Assembly (NCBI GenBank): GCA_000209815.1
Contig: FP929036.1
Coordinates: 869,658 to 933,657, forward strand
Reading direction: 5' to 3'
Source: Butyrivibrio fibrisolvens 16/4
Lineage (GTDB): Bacteria; Bacillota; Clostridia; Lachnospirales; Lachnospiraceae
DNA: 64,000 bases
The position numbers and the translations under genes were made by a program. How positions within the stretch are numbered: the first letter of the stretch is position 1; every line of letters starts with the position of its first letter. Shown here in pieces: positions 17,718 to 43,748 of this stretch. Below the pieces are notes generated by a model. It searched no databases and was not told the origin of the DNA. It was given only the letters and a program-made list of their open reading frames with translations.

Positions 17718-17759
17718 GCCCCGAGAACATTGGATTTTCAATGTTCTCGGGGCTTTTTT
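17718..17759 (+). terminator. guaA terminator
   Basis: A perfect 15-bp GC-rich stem (17718-17732/17739-17753) with 6-nt loop and six Ts. Confidence 0.95.
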
Positions 17760-17791: not shown

Positions 17792-17820
17792 TTGACAAAT
17801 CACGCAGGAAGCGTTATATT
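17792..17820 (+). promoter_or_regulatory. Strong promoter driving array 1 and the nuclease-like gene
   Basis: TTGACA (17792-17797), exact 17-bp spacer, TATATT (17815-17820). The predicted start near 17827 gives a leader of about 410 nt before the next coding region, which contains the whole inverted-hexamer array. Confidence 0.75.
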
Positions 17821-17860: not shown

Positions 17861-17889
17861 TGTGGCAGCTCGCCACAGTTTTCCTTTTT
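17861..17889 (+). terminator. Terminator-like hairpin in the array leader
   Basis: TGTGGC-AGCTC-GCCACA followed by GTTTTCCTTTTT. It would end most transcripts at about 60 nt, making either a short RNA or an attenuator ahead of the array. The stem is only 6 bp, so the strength is uncertain. Confidence 0.5.
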
Positions 17890-17940: not shown

Positions 17941-18210
17941 ATTTACGGAACATAGAAAGTGCTTTGGTCGTTATTCCGTAGGTTAACTATTTTGTTTTCT
18001 GTAAAGCATTAAGATTACGTAAGATATTGCGTTGGATATTAGTTATTCCGTAGTTCAAATGCAAATAAGATGTATTTGATTGAATGGTAAAAGAGGTTGA
18101 TCTTATAAACTACGGAATAATCCTTTAGAATCAGAGGATTTACCGTAATTAAGCAATCTGGTAATAAGCAATTACGGAATATGAACGTGAATAAGGTGAG
18201 TATTCCGTAA
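17941..18210 (+). repeat. Array 1: four units of facing TACGGA/TCCGTA hexamers, 31 bp apart
   Basis: Left hexamers start at 17944, 18016, 18111 and 18173 (TACGGA, TACGTA, TACGGA, TACGGA). Right hexamers start at 17975, 18047, 18142 and 18204 (TCCGTA, TCCGTA, ACCGTA, TCCGTA). Every pair is exactly 31 bp apart, start to start, while the 25 bp between differ among units. The extended arm consensus is (C/T)TACGGAATAA. Units are separated by irregular sequence of about 20-57 bp. The unit at 18110-18150 pairs further inward (ATCCT/AGGAT). A 10-bp palindrome AGAGTACTCT (17929-17938) precedes the first unit. The array is probably transcribed as a leader. Not CRISPR: arms are short, inverted and irregularly spaced. 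Confidence 0.85.
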
Positions 18211-18237
18211 AAAGAAGTACATGTTAAATAGGAGGTA

Positions 18238-19017
18238 ATGAAGATACAAGATTATAGAAAAGATATAGAAAAGCAATTACAAGAAGTGCAGGGGCTACTC
18301 AAAAAATCCAATAGAAATTTATTAAGATACAAGGATTTGCCTAATGCTCATGTTTATATTTCTAATAGTAATGGATGCCCACAGTATTATTTAAAAAATG
18401 AATTTGAAGCTAGAAAGTACGTCAGAAAGAAGGATATTAAGAATATTTCAAAGTTTGCGCAAAGGGATTATGAAGTAAGTATGAACTTAAAATTAAAAGC
18501 CTTTGAACGAAAGCTAAGAGTGTTCCTTGAAGATTATGATCTTGGTAGTTTAACCGATTATGATAGTTATTCAGATGCAAAGAAGGCATTAATTAAACCG
18601 CTGATTATGCCTGATGTAGATTTTATTGAAAAATGGAAGGAACAATATGCTGGAGGTCGCAACACATTTCCAGAAGAAGGTCTATATCAGACAAACCGTG
18701 GTGAGATGGTACGTTCAAAGTCAGAGAAGATTATTGCAGACGCCTTGGAAAAGTACAATGTACCCTATCAATATGAGCCTATGCTAGAGCTTGGATATAA
18801 CACTATTTATCCTGATTTTGTGGCGCTTAACCTAAGGACGCGAAAGACTATTTATTGGGAGCACTTAGGCATAGTTTCTGATATAGAGTATGCAACAAAG
18901 AATTTCAAGAAGATACAAGGCTATGAGAAAAATGGTTATCTGTTAGGTAGAGATTTGATTACAACTATGGAGTCCGCGGAGGCTCCAATTGATGTGAAGC
19001 TTGTTGAGAAAAAATAA
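18238..19017 (+). CDS. PD-(D/E)XK-like nuclease candidate downstream of array 1
   Basis: 259 residues; no named family recognised with certainty. Residues 1-130 are Lys/Glu-rich and helical. The C-terminal half shows a restriction-endonuclease-like pattern: MVRSKSEKIIADAL (Glu163 in the first helix), YQYEPML, YPDFVAL (Asp193) and IYWEHLG (Glu208, with His209 where many have Lys). LLGRDLITTME follows, as in this fold. DNA or RNA cleavage is therefore a reasonable but unproven inference. AGGAGG sits very close to the ATG. The gene follows array 1 by 28 bp and ends in its own terminator, making a self-contained promoter-array-gene unit. Confidence 0.65.
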   Translation: MKIQDYRKDIEKQLQEVQGLLKKSNRNLLRYKDLPNAHVYISNSNGCPQYYLKNEFEARKYVRKKDIKNISKFAQRDYEVSMNLKLKAFERKLRVFLEDYDLGSLTDYDSYSDAKKALIKPLIMPDVDFIEKWKEQYAGGRNTFPEEGLYQTNRGEMVRSKSEKIIADALEKYNVPYQYEPMLELGYNTIYPDFVALNLRTRKTIYWEHLGIVSDIEYATKNFKKIQGYEKNGYLLGRDLITTMESAEAPIDVKLVEKK

Positions 19018-19221: not shown

Positions 19222-19746
19222 GTGAAGATAATAGTTGTTGATGTACAAAAGGGAATTACCGATGAAAGGCTGTACAATTTTAAGGGATTTATAGAAAATG
19301 TATCGAGAATTATTGATACAGCAAGGAGAAATAATGTTGAAGTAATCTATGTTCAGCATGACGATGGACCAGGAACAGGATTTTCTGTTGGCGATAAGGA
19401 TTTTGAGATTGCTGATCAGGTCGCTCCTATGGCTGGGGAGAAGATTTTTATAAAAGAGATAAACAGCTGCTTCGGAAATAAAGAACTGGCTGAGTACCTG
19501 GAGAAAAGTGCTGACAAGGAATTAATGATTGTAGGTCTTCAGACAAACTTTTGCATAGATGCATCTGTTAAATCAGCCTTTGAAAGGGGATACAGGGTGG
19601 TTATACCTGAAGGTACCAATTCTACTTTTGATAATGATTACATGGATGCAGAAACAACCTACAGGTACTATAACGAGATGGTGTGGCCAGAGAGGTTTGC
19701 CGAGTGCGTTTCATTGGAAGATGCAATTGGAATGTTGGAGAAATGA
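19222..19746 (+). CDS. Isochorismatase-family cysteine hydrolase
   Basis: 174 residues, normal for the family. The catalytic triad is visible: Asp7 in VVDVQ, Lys78 in IKEINSCF and Cys111 in TNFCIDAS. Family members hydrolyse amide or vinyl-ether bonds (nicotinamide, N-carbamoyl compounds, isochorismate); the substrate here cannot be told. The start is GTG 19222, 9 nt from GGAG. The GrpB-like gene begins 4 bp after its stop, so the two are probably translated together. Confidence 0.88.
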   Translation: MKIIVVDVQKGITDERLYNFKGFIENVSRIIDTARRNNVEVIYVQHDDGPGTGFSVGDKDFEIADQVAPMAGEKIFIKEINSCFGNKELAEYLEKSADKELMIVGLQTNFCIDASVKSAFERGYRVVIPEGTNSTFDNDYMDAETTYRYYNEMVWPERFAECVSLEDAIGMLEK

Positions 19747-19750
19747 CTGT

Positions 19751-20293
19751 ATGAGGACAAAACACGTAGTGGTGCTTCCGTATAATGAAAAATGGAAGCA
19801 GGACTTTACCACAATAAAAGAAGAACTTAGTGCTGCCCTTGGAGACATTGCAATTGCTATTGAGCATGTTGGTAGCACATCTGTTGAAGGTATGGCTGCC
19901 AAGCCAATTATAGATATTGATGTCGCTGTGAAAAGAGAACGGATTGGTGATGCTATTTTAGCATTATCAGAGATTGGATATGTTCACGAAGGCAATCTCG
20001 GAATACCAGATAGAGAGGCATTTGCATATGAAGGGAAAGAGCACTTGCAGAGGCATCATTTATATGTATGTCCAGAGGATTCTGCGGAATTAAAAAGACA
20101 TATGACATTCAGAGATTACTTGAGAAAGCATGCTAACGCTGTCTCAGAGTATAGTAGGATTAAAATAGAGGCTGCAAATCTATATTCTGACGATATTGAT
20201 AAGTATATTGAACATAAATCCCCAGTTATTGAGAAAATCTATGAGGAAATGAATTTAAAGGATAAGAAGCATACTGATGAGATAAATTTGTAG
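19751..20293 (+). CDS. GrpB-family (UPF0157) nucleotidyltransferase-fold protein
   Basis: 180 residues. IEHVGSTSVEGMAAKPIIDIDVAV is the hallmark of the GrpB/UPF0157 group: the GS motif and paired Asp residues of a nucleotidyltransferase fold. HHLYVC and LRDYLR-like helices follow. Function unknown in most bacteria. ATG 19751 is chosen because the frame upstream overlaps the isochorismatase gene. Confidence 0.85.
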   Translation: MRTKHVVVLPYNEKWKQDFTTIKEELSAALGDIAIAIEHVGSTSVEGMAAKPIIDIDVAVKRERIGDAILALSEIGYVHEGNLGIPDREAFAYEGKEHLQRHHLYVCPEDSAELKRHMTFRDYLRKHANAVSEYSRIKIEAANLYSDDIDKYIEHKSPVIEKIYEEMNLKDKKHTDEINL

Positions 20294-20303
20294 GAGATTA
20301 AAA

Positions 20304-20723
20304 ATGACAGCAGAACAATTATGGAAACAATCAGGATTAACAGGAGAATATGAAGCGTGGGCATTTTCTGATGCCCCAGATAAAATAGCAGCACTTGTGT
20401 GCGAAGGGGCAAAAACAGCAACATGCTCATCTTACGATATGTATGCAGTAGAAAATGAACCAATTCCTAAGGTTGGAGAGTACAGCGTTATTCTTGATTC
20501 TAAGGACAATGCAGTTTGTATTATCCGCACAACTAAGATTACTATTTGTCCTTTTAAGGATGTAACTGCAGAGCATGCATATAAAGAGGGAGAAGGCGAT
20601 AGAAGCCTTGATTATTGGCGTCAGGTTCATAAGGAATTCTTGGAGAGCGAACTTGAATCAATAGATTTGGCTTTTAGCGAAGATGCAAAAGTTATTTGTG
20701 AAGAGTTTGAATTGATAAAATAA
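20304..20723 (+). CDS. ASCH-domain protein
   Basis: 139 residues. The fold is recognised from CEGAKTATCSSYDMY (the G-x-K-x-(A/S)T motif), IPKVGEYSVILDS and CPFKDVTAEHAYKEGEG. ASCH domains are RNA-binding PUA-like folds; some members deaminate or deacylate modified cytidine, so nucleoside or RNA processing is an inference. Ten bp after the GrpB-like gene, with AGGAGA before the ATG. Confidence 0.85.
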   Translation: MTAEQLWKQSGLTGEYEAWAFSDAPDKIAALVCEGAKTATCSSYDMYAVENEPIPKVGEYSVILDSKDNAVCIIRTTKITICPFKDVTAEHAYKEGEGDRSLDYWRQVHKEFLESELESIDLAFSEDAKVICEEFELIK

Positions 20724-20784
20724 TGCTTATATTCTCAGAAGGAGTATTCCCATGAGCTGCTGGAGGAATATAAGCATATTTTAG
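20723..20784 (+). other. 12-bp inverted repeat with embedded mini-ORF
   Basis: ATGCTTATATTC (20723-20734) and GAATATAAGCAT (20766-20777) are exact inverse copies around a 31-nt loop. The loop carries AAGGAG and an ATG (20752) that opens a 10-codon frame ending at 20784. It may be a transcript end (weak TTTT follows) or a leader peptide before the GNAT gene. Confidence 0.4.
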
Positions 20785-20807
20785 GATGATGTAAAGGAAA
20801 TAGTTGA

Positions 20808-21296
20808 ATGGTCATGCGAGTAATAGAAAAAGCAACAGCAAAAGACAAAGACGAAATTCTTAAACTATATAAATCCCAGCTGGGTAGAAAATATTGCCCA
20901 TGGAATGAAGACTATCCTTCAATGGAAACAATCGATTTTGATTTATCTAGAGATGCGTTACTTGTAATGCGAGAAGGGGGCAAGATAATAGCCGCTATAT
21001 CTGTTGATGACGATGAAGAGGTTAACAATTTAAAGTGTTGGACATCTGAATTACAACCCGGTGGAGAACTATCACGTCTTGCAGTTAGCCCTGATTGTCA
21101 AAGTAAAGGCTTAGCAAAAGAAATGATAGAAACAGGCTTGGAAGAGCTAAGAGTTAGAAGCTACAAAAGCCTGCATTTCTTGGTAAACAGACATAATTTA
21201 AAAGCACTTAAATGTTATTCTGCCTTTCCATTTAACAAGGTTGGCGAGTGCGAGATATATGAGCAGCCAATGCTTTGCTATGAGATGGAATTGTAA
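20808..21296 (+). CDS. GNAT-family N-acetyltransferase
   Basis: 162 residues. The acetyl-CoA-binding core is GELSRLAVSPDCQSKGLAKEM (motif A, Q/RxxGxA/G type), followed by SLHFLVNRHNLKALKCYSAF (motif B). Acceptor unknown. A second ATG six bp downstream is also possible; ribosome site is modest (AAGGAAA). Confidence 0.85.
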   Translation: MVMRVIEKATAKDKDEILKLYKSQLGRKYCPWNEDYPSMETIDFDLSRDALLVMREGGKIIAAISVDDDEEVNNLKCWTSELQPGGELSRLAVSPDCQSKGLAKEMIETGLEELRVRSYKSLHFLVNRHNLKALKCYSAFPFNKVGECEIYEQPMLCYEMEL

Positions 21297-21349
21297 TGGA
21301 TATCAGGGATAGTGGGATTATTAAAGCGCAAGTACAAGGGAGAAGATAG

Positions 21350-22039
21350 ATGTTACCAACAGCTGATGAGGCAATTGAAGAGTTAGAAATAGCAGGCAGA
21401 CTTAATCCAGGTCCTTGGGTTAAGCATTCTATGAATACAGGAGCAGCAGCCAAATATATTGCAGAAAAAGTGCCGGGGTTAGATTCTGAAAAAGCCTATA
21501 TTTGTGGGCTTTTGCATGATATAGGCAGAAGAGCTGGAATAACCGATATTCCAACCCATGTTTATGATGGATATAAATATTGTATGGAAAAAGGCTGGGA
21601 TGAGGTGGCCAGAATCTGCATGACCCATTCTTATCTTCGAATGCAGGATGAGTTTGACTATGAGCCTGAAACTGAACATGAGAAGGCCATAAAGGATTAC
21701 ATAATGAATTACGGAGAGCCAGATGATTATGATAAGTTAATTCAATTATGCGATTCTCTTGCAACAGATTATGGCTTTGTAATTTTAGAAAAGCGATTTG
21801 TTGATGTTACAAGAAGATATGGGATTATGGAAGGCTATATCAAAGGGTGGGAAGTAGCATTTAGTATAAAAGAGTATTTTGAAAAGAAGATGGGCTGTTC
21901 AATTTACGATGTGCTTCCAGATATCGGAAGGACTACACTTTTAACGCCAAAGCCTTGGAAACCACATAGCGCATCTAGTAATAAGATTAGTGTGGGTGAT
22001 GGGGATTGTATGCAACAGAATGGATATCGTATATTATGA
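21350..22039 (+). CDS. HD-domain phosphohydrolase
   Basis: 229 residues. HD signature residues: His in WVKHSMNTG, LLHDIGR (the HD pair) and Asp in IQLCDSLATD. The family hydrolyses nucleotide phosphates or similar; substrate unknown. GGGAGAAGAT precedes the ATG. The stop forms an ATGA overlap with the next (frameshifted) GNAT gene. Confidence 0.85.
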   Translation: MLPTADEAIEELEIAGRLNPGPWVKHSMNTGAAAKYIAEKVPGLDSEKAYICGLLHDIGRRAGITDIPTHVYDGYKYCMEKGWDEVARICMTHSYLRMQDEFDYEPETEHEKAIKDYIMNYGEPDDYDKLIQLCDSLATDYGFVILEKRFVDVTRRYGIMEGYIKGWEVAFSIKEYFEKKMGCSIYDVLPDIGRTTLLTPKPWKPHSASSNKISVGDGDCMQQNGYRIL

Positions 22040-22996
22040 AAATGACTAAAGGTAATATCGCAGATATTTCAAAAAATATAAGGTCAGATTAGTAGAAGAA
22101 AAGGATATATCGATAGTTTATAGCTTATGCAGAAAAATAAGTTGTACTACGAGTTTTGTCCACCATTTGTGACTCCTGAAAGTATAAAGGCTGATATGAC
22201 AGCACTACCACCGGGAAAGAGAAGGGAAGATAAATTCTATTTAGGATATTTTGATAATGACAATTTGACTGCTGTTATGGATTTGATATTGGGATATCCA
22301 GATGAAGAAACTGCTTATGTTGGATTTTTTATGACTGATGTTTCTGTACAAGGAAAGGGCGTTGGAAGTGCAATCATTAGTGAAATGAGCCAGTTTATTT
22401 GCAGCCAAGGATACTCAGATATTCAGTTAGGATGGGTAAAAAATAATCCTCAGGCAGAACATTTCTGGCATAAGAATGGATTTAAAGAGACTGGAAAGAT
22501 GCATGACATGGATGATTACACAGTTGTTGAGGCGCGAAGAAGCATAGTAGTTCCTGTAACGGAAGAAAACATAGCTGATGCTGCAAGGATTCATTCTATA
22601 TCATGGCAGGAATCACATCGTTCTTTTTGCAATGAGGACTTCATACAGAAGCATATGGTTGAACATCAGAAGGAATATATCAGAGAAAAAATGAAAAACG
22701 GAAGCAAGTTTTTCATACTTTATGATAAAGAGCCAGTTGCTGTCGTGTCGGTAAATGAGGGGCTTATAGAAGACTTATATGTTTTGCCAGAGCAGCAGAA
22801 CAGAGGGTATGGAACTCAACTGCTTAACTACGCTGTGGCTAAGATTAAGGCACAAGGGCTAATCCCATCTCTATGGATATTAGAGAACAATCATGATGCG
22901 GAGCGCCTGTATTTGCGACAGGGATTTGTTCCTACCGGAAATAGAAATCATATTACAGGCAAGCTTGATGAGGTTGAATTCAGATATGAACCATGA
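22036..22996 (+). pseudogene. Tandem two-domain GNAT acetyltransferase with two frameshifts
   Basis: The open frame from 22127 encodes two GNAT domains. The first has VSVQGKGVGSAIISEM and AEHFWHKNGF; the second has LYVLPEQQNRGYGTQLL and DAERLYLRQGF. Upstream sequence continues the first domain in other frames (KVRLVEEKDISIVYSL). Adding one A to the run at 22071-22076 and one at 22133-22137 gives an uninterrupted protein that starts at ATG 22036, in an ATGA overlap with the HD gene stop. Both breaks are in A runs, so sequencing error is likely. Acceptor unknown. Confidence 0.7.
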
Positions 22997-23939
22997 TTTT
23001 ATAGAAGCGCTGGAAAAAGGGGATTTAGAAACAATTCGTAAAATTCCAAAGGCTGACTTGCATAATCATTTTGTGCTTGGAGGAAGTAGGGAGTTTATTA
23101 AAGATAAAACCGGATATGAAATTTACCCGATTACATCACCATTAAACTCAATGAGAGAAATGGATGCCTGGAGTAGTAATTATATCGGTAATCGCTTTAA
23201 TACTCCTGAGGGCAGAAGGCTATTGATTGAGGCTACATTTGTTCAGGCTAAACTTGATGGAGTGAAAGTCCTTGAAATAGGTGAAGATGTATGGGGACTT
23301 GGTGAGTTTTTCCAAAATGATATTAAAGAACTGATTAATGCTTTTCAGGAAGCAAATAATAGAGTAGCTCCAGAGATAGAATTACGATTGCAAATAGGTT
23401 TATCAAGGCATTGTTCAATTGATTATTTGATGGAGTGTCTGTCTCATTTTTGGGGCCATAAGGAGTTTTATTCTATTGATTTATATGGTGATGAGTTAGC
23501 ACAGCCTATTGAAAATTTCGTGCCAATATATGAAAAAGCCGCAGAAAACGGACTTGTTTTGAAGGCTCATGTTGGCGAATGGGGGAATGCTCAGGATATT
23601 ATCACAGCTATAGAGGTACTTCACCTTGATGAGATACAGCACGGAATTGCTGCAATACAGGATCGAAAAGCGATAGATTATCTTGTGGAAAACAATATAA
23701 GGCTAAACATTACACCTTCAAGCAATTTTCTACTGGGTAGAGTGAAGGATTTAAAGACTCATCCAATTGCAACCCTTTATCGTAGTGGTGTTGATGTAAC
23801 AATAGGCTCTGATGATATTTTGATTTTTGATTCAGATGTTTCTAAGGAATATCTAAGGCTGTACCAGTGCGGATGTTTAACGGCTGTGGAATTGGATGAC
23901 ATACGAAAGAATGGATTAAGGACAACATGGAAGAACTGA
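22986..23939 (+). CDS. Adenosine deaminase-family amidohydrolase
   Basis: 317 residues from ATG 22986, which overlaps the GNAT stop by 11 bp; longer in-frame starts lie inside the GNAT domain. Zn and catalytic motifs of the adenosine/adenine deaminase family are present: KADLHNHFVLGG (HxH), KAHVGEWG (His and general acid Glu), IQHGIAA and TIGSDDILIF (Asp pair). The exact purine or other amine substrate is uncertain. A 23-codon frame just after (from ATGGAAGAACTG) may be a frameshifted C-terminus. Confidence 0.85.
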   Translation: MNHDFIEALEKGDLETIRKIPKADLHNHFVLGGSREFIKDKTGYEIYPITSPLNSMREMDAWSSNYIGNRFNTPEGRRLLIEATFVQAKLDGVKVLEIGEDVWGLGEFFQNDIKELINAFQEANNRVAPEIELRLQIGLSRHCSIDYLMECLSHFWGHKEFYSIDLYGDELAQPIENFVPIYEKAAENGLVLKAHVGEWGNAQDIITAIEVLHLDEIQHGIAAIQDRKAIDYLVENNIRLNITPSSNFLLGRVKDLKTHPIATLYRSGVDVTIGSDDILIFDSDVSKEYLRLYQCGCLTAVELDDIRKNGLRTTWKN

Positions 23940-24048
23940 AACTGCAACGAATGACAAGAGAACTGTGCCATGTGATTTCTTATGGATATAAAAATTAAGT
24001 GGGAAAATACAAGGATATTTAATTAGATAGGGTTTAATAGGAAAGAAT

Positions 24049-24531
24049 ATGATACGATTAGAAGCAGTGAACGGAAAAAATGTATGGGAGTTATTGAAGC
24101 TTTCAGTGGAGGATTCTCAGAGGGAGTTTGTGGCTAGTAATGATACAAGTATTATAGAGGCATACACAACCATTACCGCCCACGGATATGCATATCCATT
24201 TGGGATATATGATGGTGATATTCCTGTGGGATTTTTAATGATTGGTTTTGATAAAGATGATTATTGGGATGATGCGCCAGCCATTGCAACTGGAAATTAC
24301 AATCTTTGGCGTTTAATGATAGACAAGAAATATCAGCATAAAGGATATGGCGCGCAGGCTGTAAAGCTGGCACTGGATTTTATCAAGTCATTTCCATGTG
24401 GAAGGGCAGAATATTGTTGGCTGTCTTATGAACCAGAGAATGAAACTGCCAAGACATTATATGCAAAATATGGTTTTGTCGAAAATGGCGATATGGATGG
24501 AGAAGAAATCATAGCAGTTTTAAAACTCTAA
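24049..24531 (+). CDS. GNAT acetyltransferase (spermidine/streptothricin-type), paralog 1
   Basis: 160 residues. YPFGIYDGDIPVGFLMIGFD (substrate region), WRLMIDKKYQHKGYGAQAV (acetyl-CoA motif A) and AKTLYAKYGFVENG. The layout matches the polyamine/streptothricin acetyltransferase branch of GNAT. Its closest relative in the window is the gene at 24805, suggesting an old tandem duplication. Confidence 0.85.
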   Translation: MIRLEAVNGKNVWELLKLSVEDSQREFVASNDTSIIEAYTTITAHGYAYPFGIYDGDIPVGFLMIGFDKDDYWDDAPAIATGNYNLWRLMIDKKYQHKGYGAQAVKLALDFIKSFPCGRAEYCWLSYEPENETAKTLYAKYGFVENGDMDGEEIIAVLKL

Positions 24532-24538
24532 TGTTGTC

Positions 24539-24567
24539 TTGCACAACTTATAAAATCTGTGTATAAT
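24539..24567 (+). promoter_or_regulatory. Promoter of the leader-peptide unit
   Basis: TTGCAC (24539-24544), 17-bp spacer, consensus TATAAT (24562-24567). Transcription should start near 24574. Confidence 0.65.
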
Positions 24568-24608
24568 CCATTTTGTAAGCAAATCTAAGAAAGAGGAGGT
24601 GTTCAATT

Positions 24609-24668
24609 ATGATGAATAGAAAAAATATTATTTCTGAATATCTGTTGAAGGCCTCGGTTGTTTTATAA
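24609..24668 (+). CDS. 19-codon leader peptide candidate
   Basis: A very short frame, MMNRKNIISEYLLKASVVL, with a strong ribosome site (GAGGAGGT, 9 nt spacing) and its own promoter. It ends 15 nt before a terminator. Bases 24650-24657 (GGCCTCGG) inside the frame can pair with CCGTGGCT (24684-24691), the 5' arm of that terminator. This is the layout of ribosome-mediated attenuation controlling the GNAT gene at 24805. Peptide function as a stall sequence is inference. Confidence 0.55.
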   Translation: MMNRKNIISEYLLKASVVL

Positions 24669-24683
24669 AAAGAATTCTATTTG

Positions 24684-24709
24684 CCGTGGCTAGGTGCCAC
24701 GGTTTTTTT
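24684..24709 (+). terminator. Terminator after the leader peptide, possibly conditional
   Basis: CCGTGGC-TAGGT-GCCACGG and seven Ts. Its 5' arm has an alternative partner upstream at 24650-24657. Confidence 0.9.
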
Positions 24710-24804
24710 GTATAATAAGGGCAGTTCTTTAACATTTCACAAGCCTTCATAGATGTTCATACAAGACTTTAGGAACTAGCATTAACATTTTATGGAGGAT
24801 TCAC

Positions 24805-25254
24805 ATGATTAATCTTAGAAAAATAACAGAAGAAAACTTTATCGATGCATTTAATTTGAAGCTAGATGAAGGACAGGAAAAATACGTTTCTCATCCAGTA
24901 CGCAGCTTGGCGCAGGCCTATGTATATCGTGACCAATGTCAGCCATTTGGAATTTATAATGATGATAAGATGGTTGGCTATGTGATGGTGATTTACGACT
25001 ATGACATTCCAGAATATAACATCTGGCATATGATGATTGACGAAAAGCATCAAGGCAAAGGCTATGGAAAAGCTGCTTTAAAGCGGGTCATAGCCTACAT
25101 TAAGAAAAAGCCTTTTGGAGATTCAAATAGGGTGACACTAACATGTAATCTAGAGAATAATAAAGCAATGGAACTATATCATGGTCTTGGATTTAAAGAG
25201 ACTGGGGTAGTGGATGAGGATGAGATAGAATTATTAATAATGATGGAGGAGTAG
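24805..25254 (+). CDS. GNAT acetyltransferase (spermidine/streptothricin-type), paralog 2
   Basis: 149 residues. QPFGIYNDDKMVGYVMVIYD, WHMMIDEKHQGKGYGKAAL (acetyl-CoA site) and NNKAMELYHGLGFKETG. Related to the gene at 24049. If the upstream leader is an attenuator, this would be the controlled gene, which would suit an antibiotic- or polyamine-modifying role; that is inference. GGAGG precedes the ATG; the stop is one base from the next start. Confidence 0.87.
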   Translation: MINLRKITEENFIDAFNLKLDEGQEKYVSHPVRSLAQAYVYRDQCQPFGIYNDDKMVGYVMVIYDYDIPEYNIWHMMIDEKHQGKGYGKAALKRVIAYIKKKPFGDSNRVTLTCNLENNKAMELYHGLGFKETGVVDEDEIELLIMMEE

Positions 25255-25255
25255 A

Positions 25256-26134
25256 ATGCATTTCGTAAATGCGAAGGGGATATTAACTGCAAATAATGGC
25301 CGATGCGGTATGAACATATATCGTGGCTGCACTCATGGCTGTATTTATTGTGATAGCAGAAGCAAATGCTATCAGTTTACCCATGCCTTCGAAGATATTG
25401 AGGTGAAGCAGAATGCCCCGGAGCTTTTAGAGTCGGCTCTTAAATCAAAAAGAAAGAAATGCATGATTGGAACAGGTGCTATGTCAGATCCATATATGCA
25501 CTGTGAGGAGCAGTTGAAGCTTACAAGACAGTGCCTGGAAATCATTTCTAAATACGAATTTGGCATAGCGATTCAGACAAAGTCAGACAGGATTCTTAGG
25601 GATATTGATCTTTTGGATGAAATTAATCAGAAGGCAAAGACTGTGGTGCAGATGACATTGACTACTTATGACGATGACCTGTGCGCTATTATAGAACCCA
25701 ATGTCTGCAATACAAAACGCAGAATACAGGTGTTAGAGGAGATGCAAAAGCGTGGCATTCCAACAGTGGTTTGGCTTACACCAATTCTTCCTTTTATAAA
25801 CGATACAGAAGAAAACGTAAATGCGATACTTGAGGAATGCATCCGAGTGGGTGTGAAGGGCATTATTTGCTTTGATATGGGCGTGACCCTGAGGGAAGGT
25901 GACAGGGAATATTTTTATGAGGCATTGGATAAAAATTTTCCGGGATTGAAAGAAAAATACATTAGAACCTATGGCAATTCCTATAATGTACCAAGTCCTA
26001 ACAATGCAAAGCTTATGAGACTTTTTGAGGATACCTGTAAAGCTCATAACATCCTTTATAAGCCTAATGATTGCTTCAGATTTATGAATGATTTGCCGGA
26101 GAGATATGAACAGCTGACGCTAGATTTGATATAA
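25256..26134 (+). CDS. Radical SAM protein (spore photoproduct lyase-like group)
   Basis: 292 residues. YRGCTHGCIYCDSR supplies the three Cys (CxxxCxxC) of the 4Fe-4S cluster that cleaves S-adenosylmethionine; GTGAMSDPYMHCE and AIQTKSDRILRD follow as in SplB/Rv2578c-type proteins. Reaction unknown; true DNA-repair lyases are longer. It starts one base after the GNAT stop with AGGAG at the junction, so the two genes are coupled. Confidence 0.85.
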   Translation: MHFVNAKGILTANNGRCGMNIYRGCTHGCIYCDSRSKCYQFTHAFEDIEVKQNAPELLESALKSKRKKCMIGTGAMSDPYMHCEEQLKLTRQCLEIISKYEFGIAIQTKSDRILRDIDLLDEINQKAKTVVQMTLTTYDDDLCAIIEPNVCNTKRRIQVLEEMQKRGIPTVVWLTPILPFINDTEENVNAILEECIRVGVKGIICFDMGVTLREGDREYFYEALDKNFPGLKEKYIRTYGNSYNVPSPNNAKLMRLFEDTCKAHNILYKPNDCFRFMNDLPERYEQLTLDLI

Positions 26135-43495: not shown

Positions 43496-43748
43496 ATTAC
43501 GGAAAAATTAAGTAATATATAAGATTATTACGTAGATTTTTAGGAGAGAAAAGAGTTTTTATGAGTTTAATTACGGAAGAATTATTGGTTATTATGAATT
43601 GTTCCGTAGGTAACCTATAAGAATTGCATCTAAAACTAGAATAGTCTACGGTAAAAATATGGAAGAAATGTATTTATTCCGTAAATAGAGTATAAGCAAG
43701 AATAATCACTACGGTATTTATAGTAGATTACTAGGATTTACCGTAAAT
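43496..43748 (+). repeat. Array 2: four units of facing TACGGA/TCCGTA hexamers
   Basis: Left hexamers start at 43498, 43572, 43647 and 43710 (TACGGA, TACGGA, TACGGT, TACGGT). Right hexamers start at 43529, 43603, 43678 and 43740 (TACGTA, TCCGTA, TCCGTA, ACCGTA). Distances are 31, 31, 31 and 30 bp. Inner sequences differ, but several extend the pairing: AATT/AATT in unit 2, AAATA/TATTT in unit 3, TAGTA/TACTA in unit 4. The array matches array 1 in motif, unit length and unit number. No obvious promoter precedes it, and the next gene starts 41 bp on. Confidence 0.85.

Follow-up and report, generated by a model that had tools for sequence, protein, structure and literature searches.

What does a row of facing arms, held at one distance and repeated four times in front of a single gene, do in the genome of Butyrivibrio fibrisolvens 16/4? 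The locus lies in a 64,000-nucleotide stretch of that genome, hereafter the window, where the four units of what we call array A (no strand assigned) precede a gene for a 259-aa protein on the plus strand (18238-19017). Unit 1 (17944-17980) and unit 4 (18173-18209) both carry the arms TACGGAA and TTCCGTA, unit 2 (18016-18052) has a variant left arm (TACGTAA, with TTCCGTA on the right), and unit 3 (18111-18147) has a variant right arm (TACCGTA, with TACGGAA on the left). A preliminary description of this DNA had reported four units of facing hexamers, and indeed every one of the four keeps a start-to-start distance of 31 bp between its hexamers. It had also proposed that this geometry is under selection, a proposal that the fixed arm spacing and the helical quantisation described below strongly support.

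The comparison with shuffled sequence that the description had suggested came out in its favour. The strict pattern TACGNA-N25-TNCGTA matches the window five times against 0.01 expected from 100 dinucleotide shuffles, with three matches in array A, whose unit 3 the pattern does not catch, and two in a second array at 43498-43608. Similarly, clustered units with exact 7-bp arms occur in the window only in array A and in this second array, B, and in none of three shuffled windows. The distance is also kept in related strains: across 29 genomes of the genus we counted 66 TACGGAA...TTCCGTA pairs with gaps of 8-38 bp, compared with 24 for a reversed control pattern, and in 59 of the 66 the gap is 22-24 bp. 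Where a TACGGAA-arm gene was identified, in six genomes, this applies to all 53 pairs, with 47 at exactly 23 bp, and the seven pairs at other gaps all come from outside these six genomes.

Relatives of the downstream gene were found in 41 of 99 related genomes, a single genome giving as many as 11 matches; most belong to the window's genus and family, and a few to another family of the order (G067 and G088). A sample of 398 genomes of the phylum gave 14 matches; five of these were long, all in the window's family, and the other nine were mostly confined to the C-terminal part, several lying inside long frames. We kept the best 80 of 575 confirmed loci, from Pseudobutyrivibrio, Butyrivibrio, Lachnospira, Acetatifactor, Oribacterium and other Lachnospiraceae or Clostridiales, 8 of them with less than 800 bp upstream. 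An automatic search with a unit finder that allows at most one mismatch per arm found at least three array units, and up to 15, upstream of the gene in 66 of the 80 relatives, compared with 5 of 76 for the 800 bp downstream and 0 of 80 for shuffled upstream DNA; the remaining 14 relatives have fewer than three. The arms differ among loci (TACAGTG/T, TGCATCC, TTACGGG, CTACGTGG, CTACGTCT, GACACGT, CTTGCCT and more), and grouping by hand gave up to 41 arm classes among 60 loci, some of which are perhaps one arm in another register. One genome may hold several paralogs with different arms, as judged by eye. The window genome has a second paralog at G000:C1:2662875, with a GAGCAGTACTAG-type array. 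A further family paralog at G000:C1:1985570-1986066, which sits behind an array with TACTGCGTA-like arms, could be matched only piecewise and looks decayed; in one search one of the pieces had an internal stop.

From one left arm to the next, the main distances are 52-53, 62-63, 73-74, 84, 93-95 and 105 bp. Unit-to-unit distances are quantised at 10.4-10.5 bp (Rayleigh R 0.86, n=131), and with one value per arm class and distance R is 0.85 and the best period 10.43 bp (n=102, 60 loci), both sets coming from the 60 loci that remained once units of other than the modal length, and distances above 200 bp, had been removed. Arrays that stand away from the gene are phased like the genes' own arrays (R 0.86 for 76 distances among the arrays listed, copied by hand, with some orthologous duplicates and a few others omitted, some orthologs included, and absence of the gene checked for the fetched arrays only). 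The helical repeat of DNA is the simplest cause of this phasing, and one option of the preliminary description, protein sites on one face of the helix, gains support from it. In addition, 14 four-unit TACGGAA arrays, some the gene's own and some in trans, share a common spacing and a two-fold symmetry, such that units of the first half read T-unit-G in 24 of 28 cases and units of the second half C-unit-A in 22 of 28; 16 TACGGAA arrays were examined for this count and two, with three units found, were left out. The filling between the arms had been called unconserved. This stands for the own arrays, where four comparisons gave arm identities of 91-100% and filler identities of 37-79%, in alignments that may be anchored by the arms for distant pairs, but arrays that stand away from the gene can be partially similar to one another within one genome.

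Upstream of array A the promoter and hairpin noticed earlier are both present. The promoter, TTGACA (17792-17797) and TATATT (17815-17820) separated by 17 bp, lies on the plus strand at 17792-17820, and one of the same kind is found upstream of the array in 22 of the 66 array-bearing relatives and anywhere in 1 of 66 shuffled upstream regions. Because of this recurrence it is plausible that array A is transcribed together with the nuclease-like gene. By eye, no terminator was seen between the two (18209-18238). First units also show a weak phasing relative to the -10 box (p about 0.01 on 16 distinct values), which is only suggestive. The hairpin, TGTGGC-AGCTC-GCCACA preceded by TATCAC, is real at 17861-17877 on the same strand, and a similar element occurs in 11 of the 66 array-bearing relatives, including some whose arms differ. 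Another hairpin, strong and terminator-like, follows guaA at 17718-17753, just before this promoter.

The protein could not be assigned to a known family. Searches of Pfam (at E 10) and NCBIfam gave no family match, PHROGs matches were weak, PADLOC candidates matched the C-terminal half only, and there was one weak PDB sequence match. Among the PADLOC candidates is PDC-S68, whose end is matched by the C-terminal half with E 1e-27. A phage origin was likewise set aside, with one match in viral contigs, to C-terminal residues 142-259. We aligned 64 of the 80 loci in one alignment (A2) and 61 in another (A3); E163, D193 and E208 are invariant in 65 aligned sequences and K225 is kept in at least 90%. 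For the predicted structure of the C-terminal half (about residues 145-259), the first seven Foldseek matches are restriction-endonuclease-like (probability 0.87-0.98, E 0.02-0.15, TM-score 0.20-0.28), a class to which we take R2 and Card1 to belong, so the model weakly resembles such folds. The N-terminal half (residues 1 to about 130) was modelled with a pLDDT of 92; its first Foldseek matches are mostly prefoldin-like, with E 0.2 or worse, and no convincing DNA-binding structure was found among the matches listed.

It is this N-terminal half that correlates with the arm. For example, the window protein and that of L041, which have different arms, are 96% identical in the C-terminal half and 33% in the N-terminal half, and DNA homology to eight different-arm loci stops before the array and restarts at 18618-18667, close to where the C-terminal half begins. 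More generally, N-half identity is higher in same-arm than in different-arm pairs at C-half identities of 0.6 and above: medians are 0.68 and 0.38 (4 and 16 pairs, p 0.003) at a C-half identity of 0.8-0.9, and 0.70 and 0.45 (8 and 23 pairs, p 5e-5) at 0.7-0.8, in a test of 51 rows including the window that drops pairs of intermediate arm score and uses non-independent pairs, with L038/L039 counted as different-arm from register though both are TACAGT. Below 0.6 the association fades (p 0.05 at 0.5-0.6 and 0.31 at 0.4-0.5). With arm classes grouped by hand, the arm-correlated residues are concentrated at 21-100 and include 38, 40, 43, 45 and 47, which lie on or beside a predicted beta hairpin. 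Judged from the sequences, then, the N-terminal half tracks the arm at matched C-half identity.

Arrays of the same arm also occur in trans, with no gene of the family beside them. Array B of the window (no strand assigned; units at 43498-43534, 43572-43608, 43647-43683 and, 36 bp long, 43710-43745) has the arm of array A and lies 25 kb away, between a kinase-like gene and a maltose O-acetyltransferase-like gene and upstream of the latter. The window genome has further TACGGAA sites: a pair at 1232921/1233079, four units at 1258585-1258842 and a single unit at 2918275. In the genome G013, 27 exact TACGGAA units are found at many places. Three units with the arm GGGCAGTACTAG and a 52-bp period, again with no family gene, were seen at L302:8417-8558 (G000:C1 about 1254416-1254557); by eye the arm is that of the array of the paralog at G000:C1:2662875. 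Genomes in which the cognate gene was identified have more trans units for TACGGAA (p 5e-4; presence/absence by Fisher test 0.01) and TACAGT (p 0.003; Fisher 0.07), and weakly so for TGCATCC (p 0.07; Fisher 0.21), p values that are generous because the genomes are related and that come from counts in which own-array units were partly estimated (TGCATCC in G009, G014 and G022; TACAGT in G017 and G003), genomes scored as lacking the gene may carry one unread, and units of a TACAGTGC-type arm are picked up by the TACAGT pattern as well.

We fetched 20 trans arrays. Five (L170, L173, L174, L177 and L179) lie between convergent genes when short ORFs are ignored, a share close to that which arrays placed at random in intergenic DNA might show, and some, such as L176, L178 and L180, lie 30-80 bp upstream of a gene start. 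None of the 20 has the leader promoter or hairpin within 300 bp, so these are not simply loci that have lost the gene. By eye their filler had seemed unrelated, a reading ruled out by partial similarity within one genome between L166 and L167 (70% over 207 columns, E 2e-15) and, in inverted orientation, between L174 and L175 (71% over 221, E 6e-21). Since this similarity extends over about 200 bp, direct or inverted, at least some trans arrays descend from common copies. Orthologous trans arrays, compared in seven cases, were conserved to about the same degree in arms and filler and so gave no sign of purifying selection.

The same chromosomal gap may hold arrays of different arms. In G000, G009 and G014 the gap between the kinase-like and maltose acetyltransferase-like genes is occupied by a TACGGAA array, whose unit 2 has mutated arms in G009 and G014. 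G022 and G003 have in its place a TACAGT array of about that length; compared with G000, the genes on either side are 95-97% identical in G022 and 88-90% identical in G003. Similarly, the end of one gene, which we take to be YfiH-like, is a shared flank of a TGCATCC array in G008 (L179) and TACAGT arrays in G006 and G017 (L306 and L308). In a comparison of 25 loci for the junction of aspS with its next gene, both genes being in reach in 7, G022 has an array and G005, G007 and G010 have 56, 112 and 129 bp between the homologous ends. One of the loci where both were not in reach, in G014, has a three-unit match with the arm GATAAAA. Behind aspS, L177:1728-1894 is a repeat of roughly 160 bp, copies of which lie at several positions in several genomes of the genus. 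A large serine recombinase-like gene in G019 (L303:13448-15595) is followed directly by a TGCATCC array, near which there are TACAGT units; an array closely similar to this TGCATCC array lies behind a ppdK-like gene in G011 (L304).

Around the gene itself, guaA is upstream in 17 of the 80 loci, the window included in the pattern, and those compared have different arms; clustering of 468 neighbouring ORFs placed every other family at 9 of the 80 loci or fewer. Behind the array gene, the window at 19222-26134 contains a run of single-gene accessory functions, presumably isochorismatase-like, GrpB-like and ASCH-like genes, several GNAT acetyltransferases, an HD domain and an adenosine deaminase-like gene. 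A far-reaching but doubtful proposal is that the system is an engine of gene exchange, in which each nuclease would cut or pair the arrays of its own arm and the adjoining DNA would be repaired from or swapped with that of other strains. Specificity would be renewed by swapping array and N-terminal half together, sites would escape by acquiring an array of another arm, and the arrays in the kinase/maltose acetyltransferase gap would be a footprint of such exchange.

The reading that we prefer, with a probability of roughly 0.65, is that a modular, DNA-binding, nuclease-like protein assembles on a phased array, probably regulates its own gene and acts on arrays in trans. The array would be double-stranded DNA bound by the protein encoded just downstream, and each 37-bp unit would consist of two half-sites in inverted orientation, separated by three helical turns and presumably bound by a dimer. 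Because units are separated by whole helical turns, all half-sites would face one side of the DNA, and in four-unit arrays two units would point one way and two the other, giving overall two-fold symmetry. The half-site would be read by the N-terminal half, the C-terminal half would be a restriction-endonuclease-like domain, and array and N-terminal half would be inherited and exchanged as one block of specificity. Assembly along one face of the leader array would lower the protein's own transcription; since the array lies between promoter and start codon, repression is the most likely form that such control would take. Arrays of the same type elsewhere in the chromosome would be further binding sites, at which the protein might regulate, nick, cut, pair or copy. 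We infer binding, autoregulation and nuclease action alike, with unequal assurance. Sequence-specific binding of its own array by the protein is highly probable, while for autoregulation the odds appear even, and DNA cutting or nicking in normal function is a comparably balanced question. The preferred reading has against it the lack of a DNA-binding likeness in the N-terminal model, the poor E values and TM-scores of the C-terminal matches, the 14 relatives with fewer than three units, the fading of the arm association below 0.6 C-half identity and the equal conservation of arms and filler in trans arrays.

The other option offered in the preliminary description, that of RNA hairpins, fared less well. 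As in type III toxin-antitoxin loci, hairpins in the transcript would restrain a toxic nuclease, and tandem units of near 37 nt behind one promoter and upstream of a nuclease-like gene would suit this role. Nevertheless, within-unit covariation of the arms amounted to 232 matches against a permuted mean of 232.6 (sd 2.8; 73 variable columns in 52 loci, with the one-mismatch unit finder limiting the arm variation visible), and with looser detection, for the TGCATCC arm only, to 119 against 117.2 (sd 3.9; 15 loci). In L015 and L017 the two arms show the same change in two of five units, which either pairing or the copying of units would produce, with no excess overall. The two arms of a unit thus vary independently of each other, which speaks against RNA stems, and helical phasing also counts against RNA, as RNA would not need whole-turn spacing. 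In addition, the trans arrays lack the leader promoter (0 of 20) and five of them occupy gaps between convergent genes. A known RNA family was also dropped, as the two Rfam matches were both below the gathering score. With covariation and phasing both against it, the hairpin reading appears highly improbable.

Were the array simply an operator, the protein would be a repressor of nuclease descent, acting on its own gene and a few accessory genes, and would have no nuclease role. Helical phasing is typical of operators, array A sits between promoter and gene, and L176, L178 and L180 have their arrays 30-80 bp upstream of a gene start; nonetheless the nuclease-type acidic residues are invariant, and a quarter of the fetched trans arrays stand in convergent gaps, if perhaps at about random expectation, so we regard this purely transcriptional role as possible yet unlikely. 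Much the same standing belongs to a partnership like that of REP elements and TnpAREP, compatible with the binding model, in which the trans arrays would be non-autonomous elements copied or moved by the nuclease. The cognate elements do sit in intergenic gaps, one genome's trans arrays are partly similar (L166/L167 and L174/L175), and the aspS junction is array-free in G005, G007 and G010 and occupied in their relative G022. Yet no recent movement is apparent from the copies compared, which have diverged far, exact-arm units number from few to 27 per genome, far below REP numbers, no HuH protein was found, and the lack of excess covariation speaks against arms that fold into a stem. Less probable again is a defence or restriction module whose nuclease would attack foreign DNA bearing the half-sites, with the arrays as decoys or marks of self. 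The match of the C-terminal half to PDC-S68 and the paralogs of different arms within one genome speak for it; against it, the guaA association is the only one exceeding 9 of 80 loci, so no standard methyltransferase partner is seen.

If the preferred reading of an array-binding, nuclease-like protein is right, each genome pairs a candidate DNA-reading domain with the sequence that the domain would read, and the recognition code of a domain without a recognised fold could therefore be derived largely from sequence. Should it turn out that the protein also cuts at these arrays, we would have a natural nuclease, dimeric and retargetable, whose layout of half-site, spacer and half-site is like that of designed zinc-finger or TALE nucleases, and a candidate driver of accessory-gene turnover in rumen bacteria. 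The gene family with its own arrays occurs in a group of gut and rumen bacteria, and a limited search of mainly open-access literature found no description of this array-gene system. TnpAREP/REP, type III toxin-antitoxin and restriction-modification systems each have at least one defining feature that our tests did not find here.

The REPtrons (TnpAREP/REP, RAYT) also join a gene to cognate palindromic elements dispersed in intergenic DNA, and enzyme and element are said to have co-evolved (PMC8266576). TnpAREP, however, is an HuH enzyme acting on single-stranded REP, whereas here the C-terminal half resembles restriction-endonuclease-like folds, the arms have the look of half-sites in double-stranded DNA, and the gene's own leader contains a phased array of several units; no Pfam match to an HuH (IS200/IS605-like) enzyme was found at E 10, and the first Foldseek matches are, as noted, of another class. 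Type III toxin-antitoxin loci have a similar gene order; in those loci a terminator separates repeats and toxin gene, and ToxN-like endoribonucleases have the MazF/Kid fold. Repeats occur together with a nuclease gene in ToxIN and its relatives (PMC8860590). Those repeats act as RNA, whereas here the evidence points to DNA: the arms show no excess covariation of the kind expected from conserved RNA structure, the units are helically quantised, and a ToxN-like endoribonuclease was found neither among the 50 Foldseek matches listed nor in Pfam.

In the hsdS modules of restriction systems, target-recognition domains are exchanged against a conserved other half. The present proteins likewise have a variable, putative recognition half and a conserved remainder, but their exchanged block includes an array of the protein's own sites, and, unlike in restriction-modification, no recurrent methyltransferase partner was seen near the 80 loci. 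Integron attC cassettes place sites between accessory genes; here too sites lie among accessory genes whose order differs in relatives, but the array stands in the enzyme gene's own leader and is helically phased, and no recurrent tyrosine integrase neighbour was found near the 80 gene loci. The lac, ara and NrdR boxes are helically phased operators with half-sites about three turns apart on one face. The arrays have this spacing and this single face, and helically phased sites between promoter and gene, as in an autoregulated operator, are found here as well (promoter motif in 22 of 66). Unlike those operators, they form arrays of 3-15 units whose arm varies from locus to locus with the protein, which has a nuclease-like domain, and the whole looks like an undescribed, self-marked DNA-binding system.
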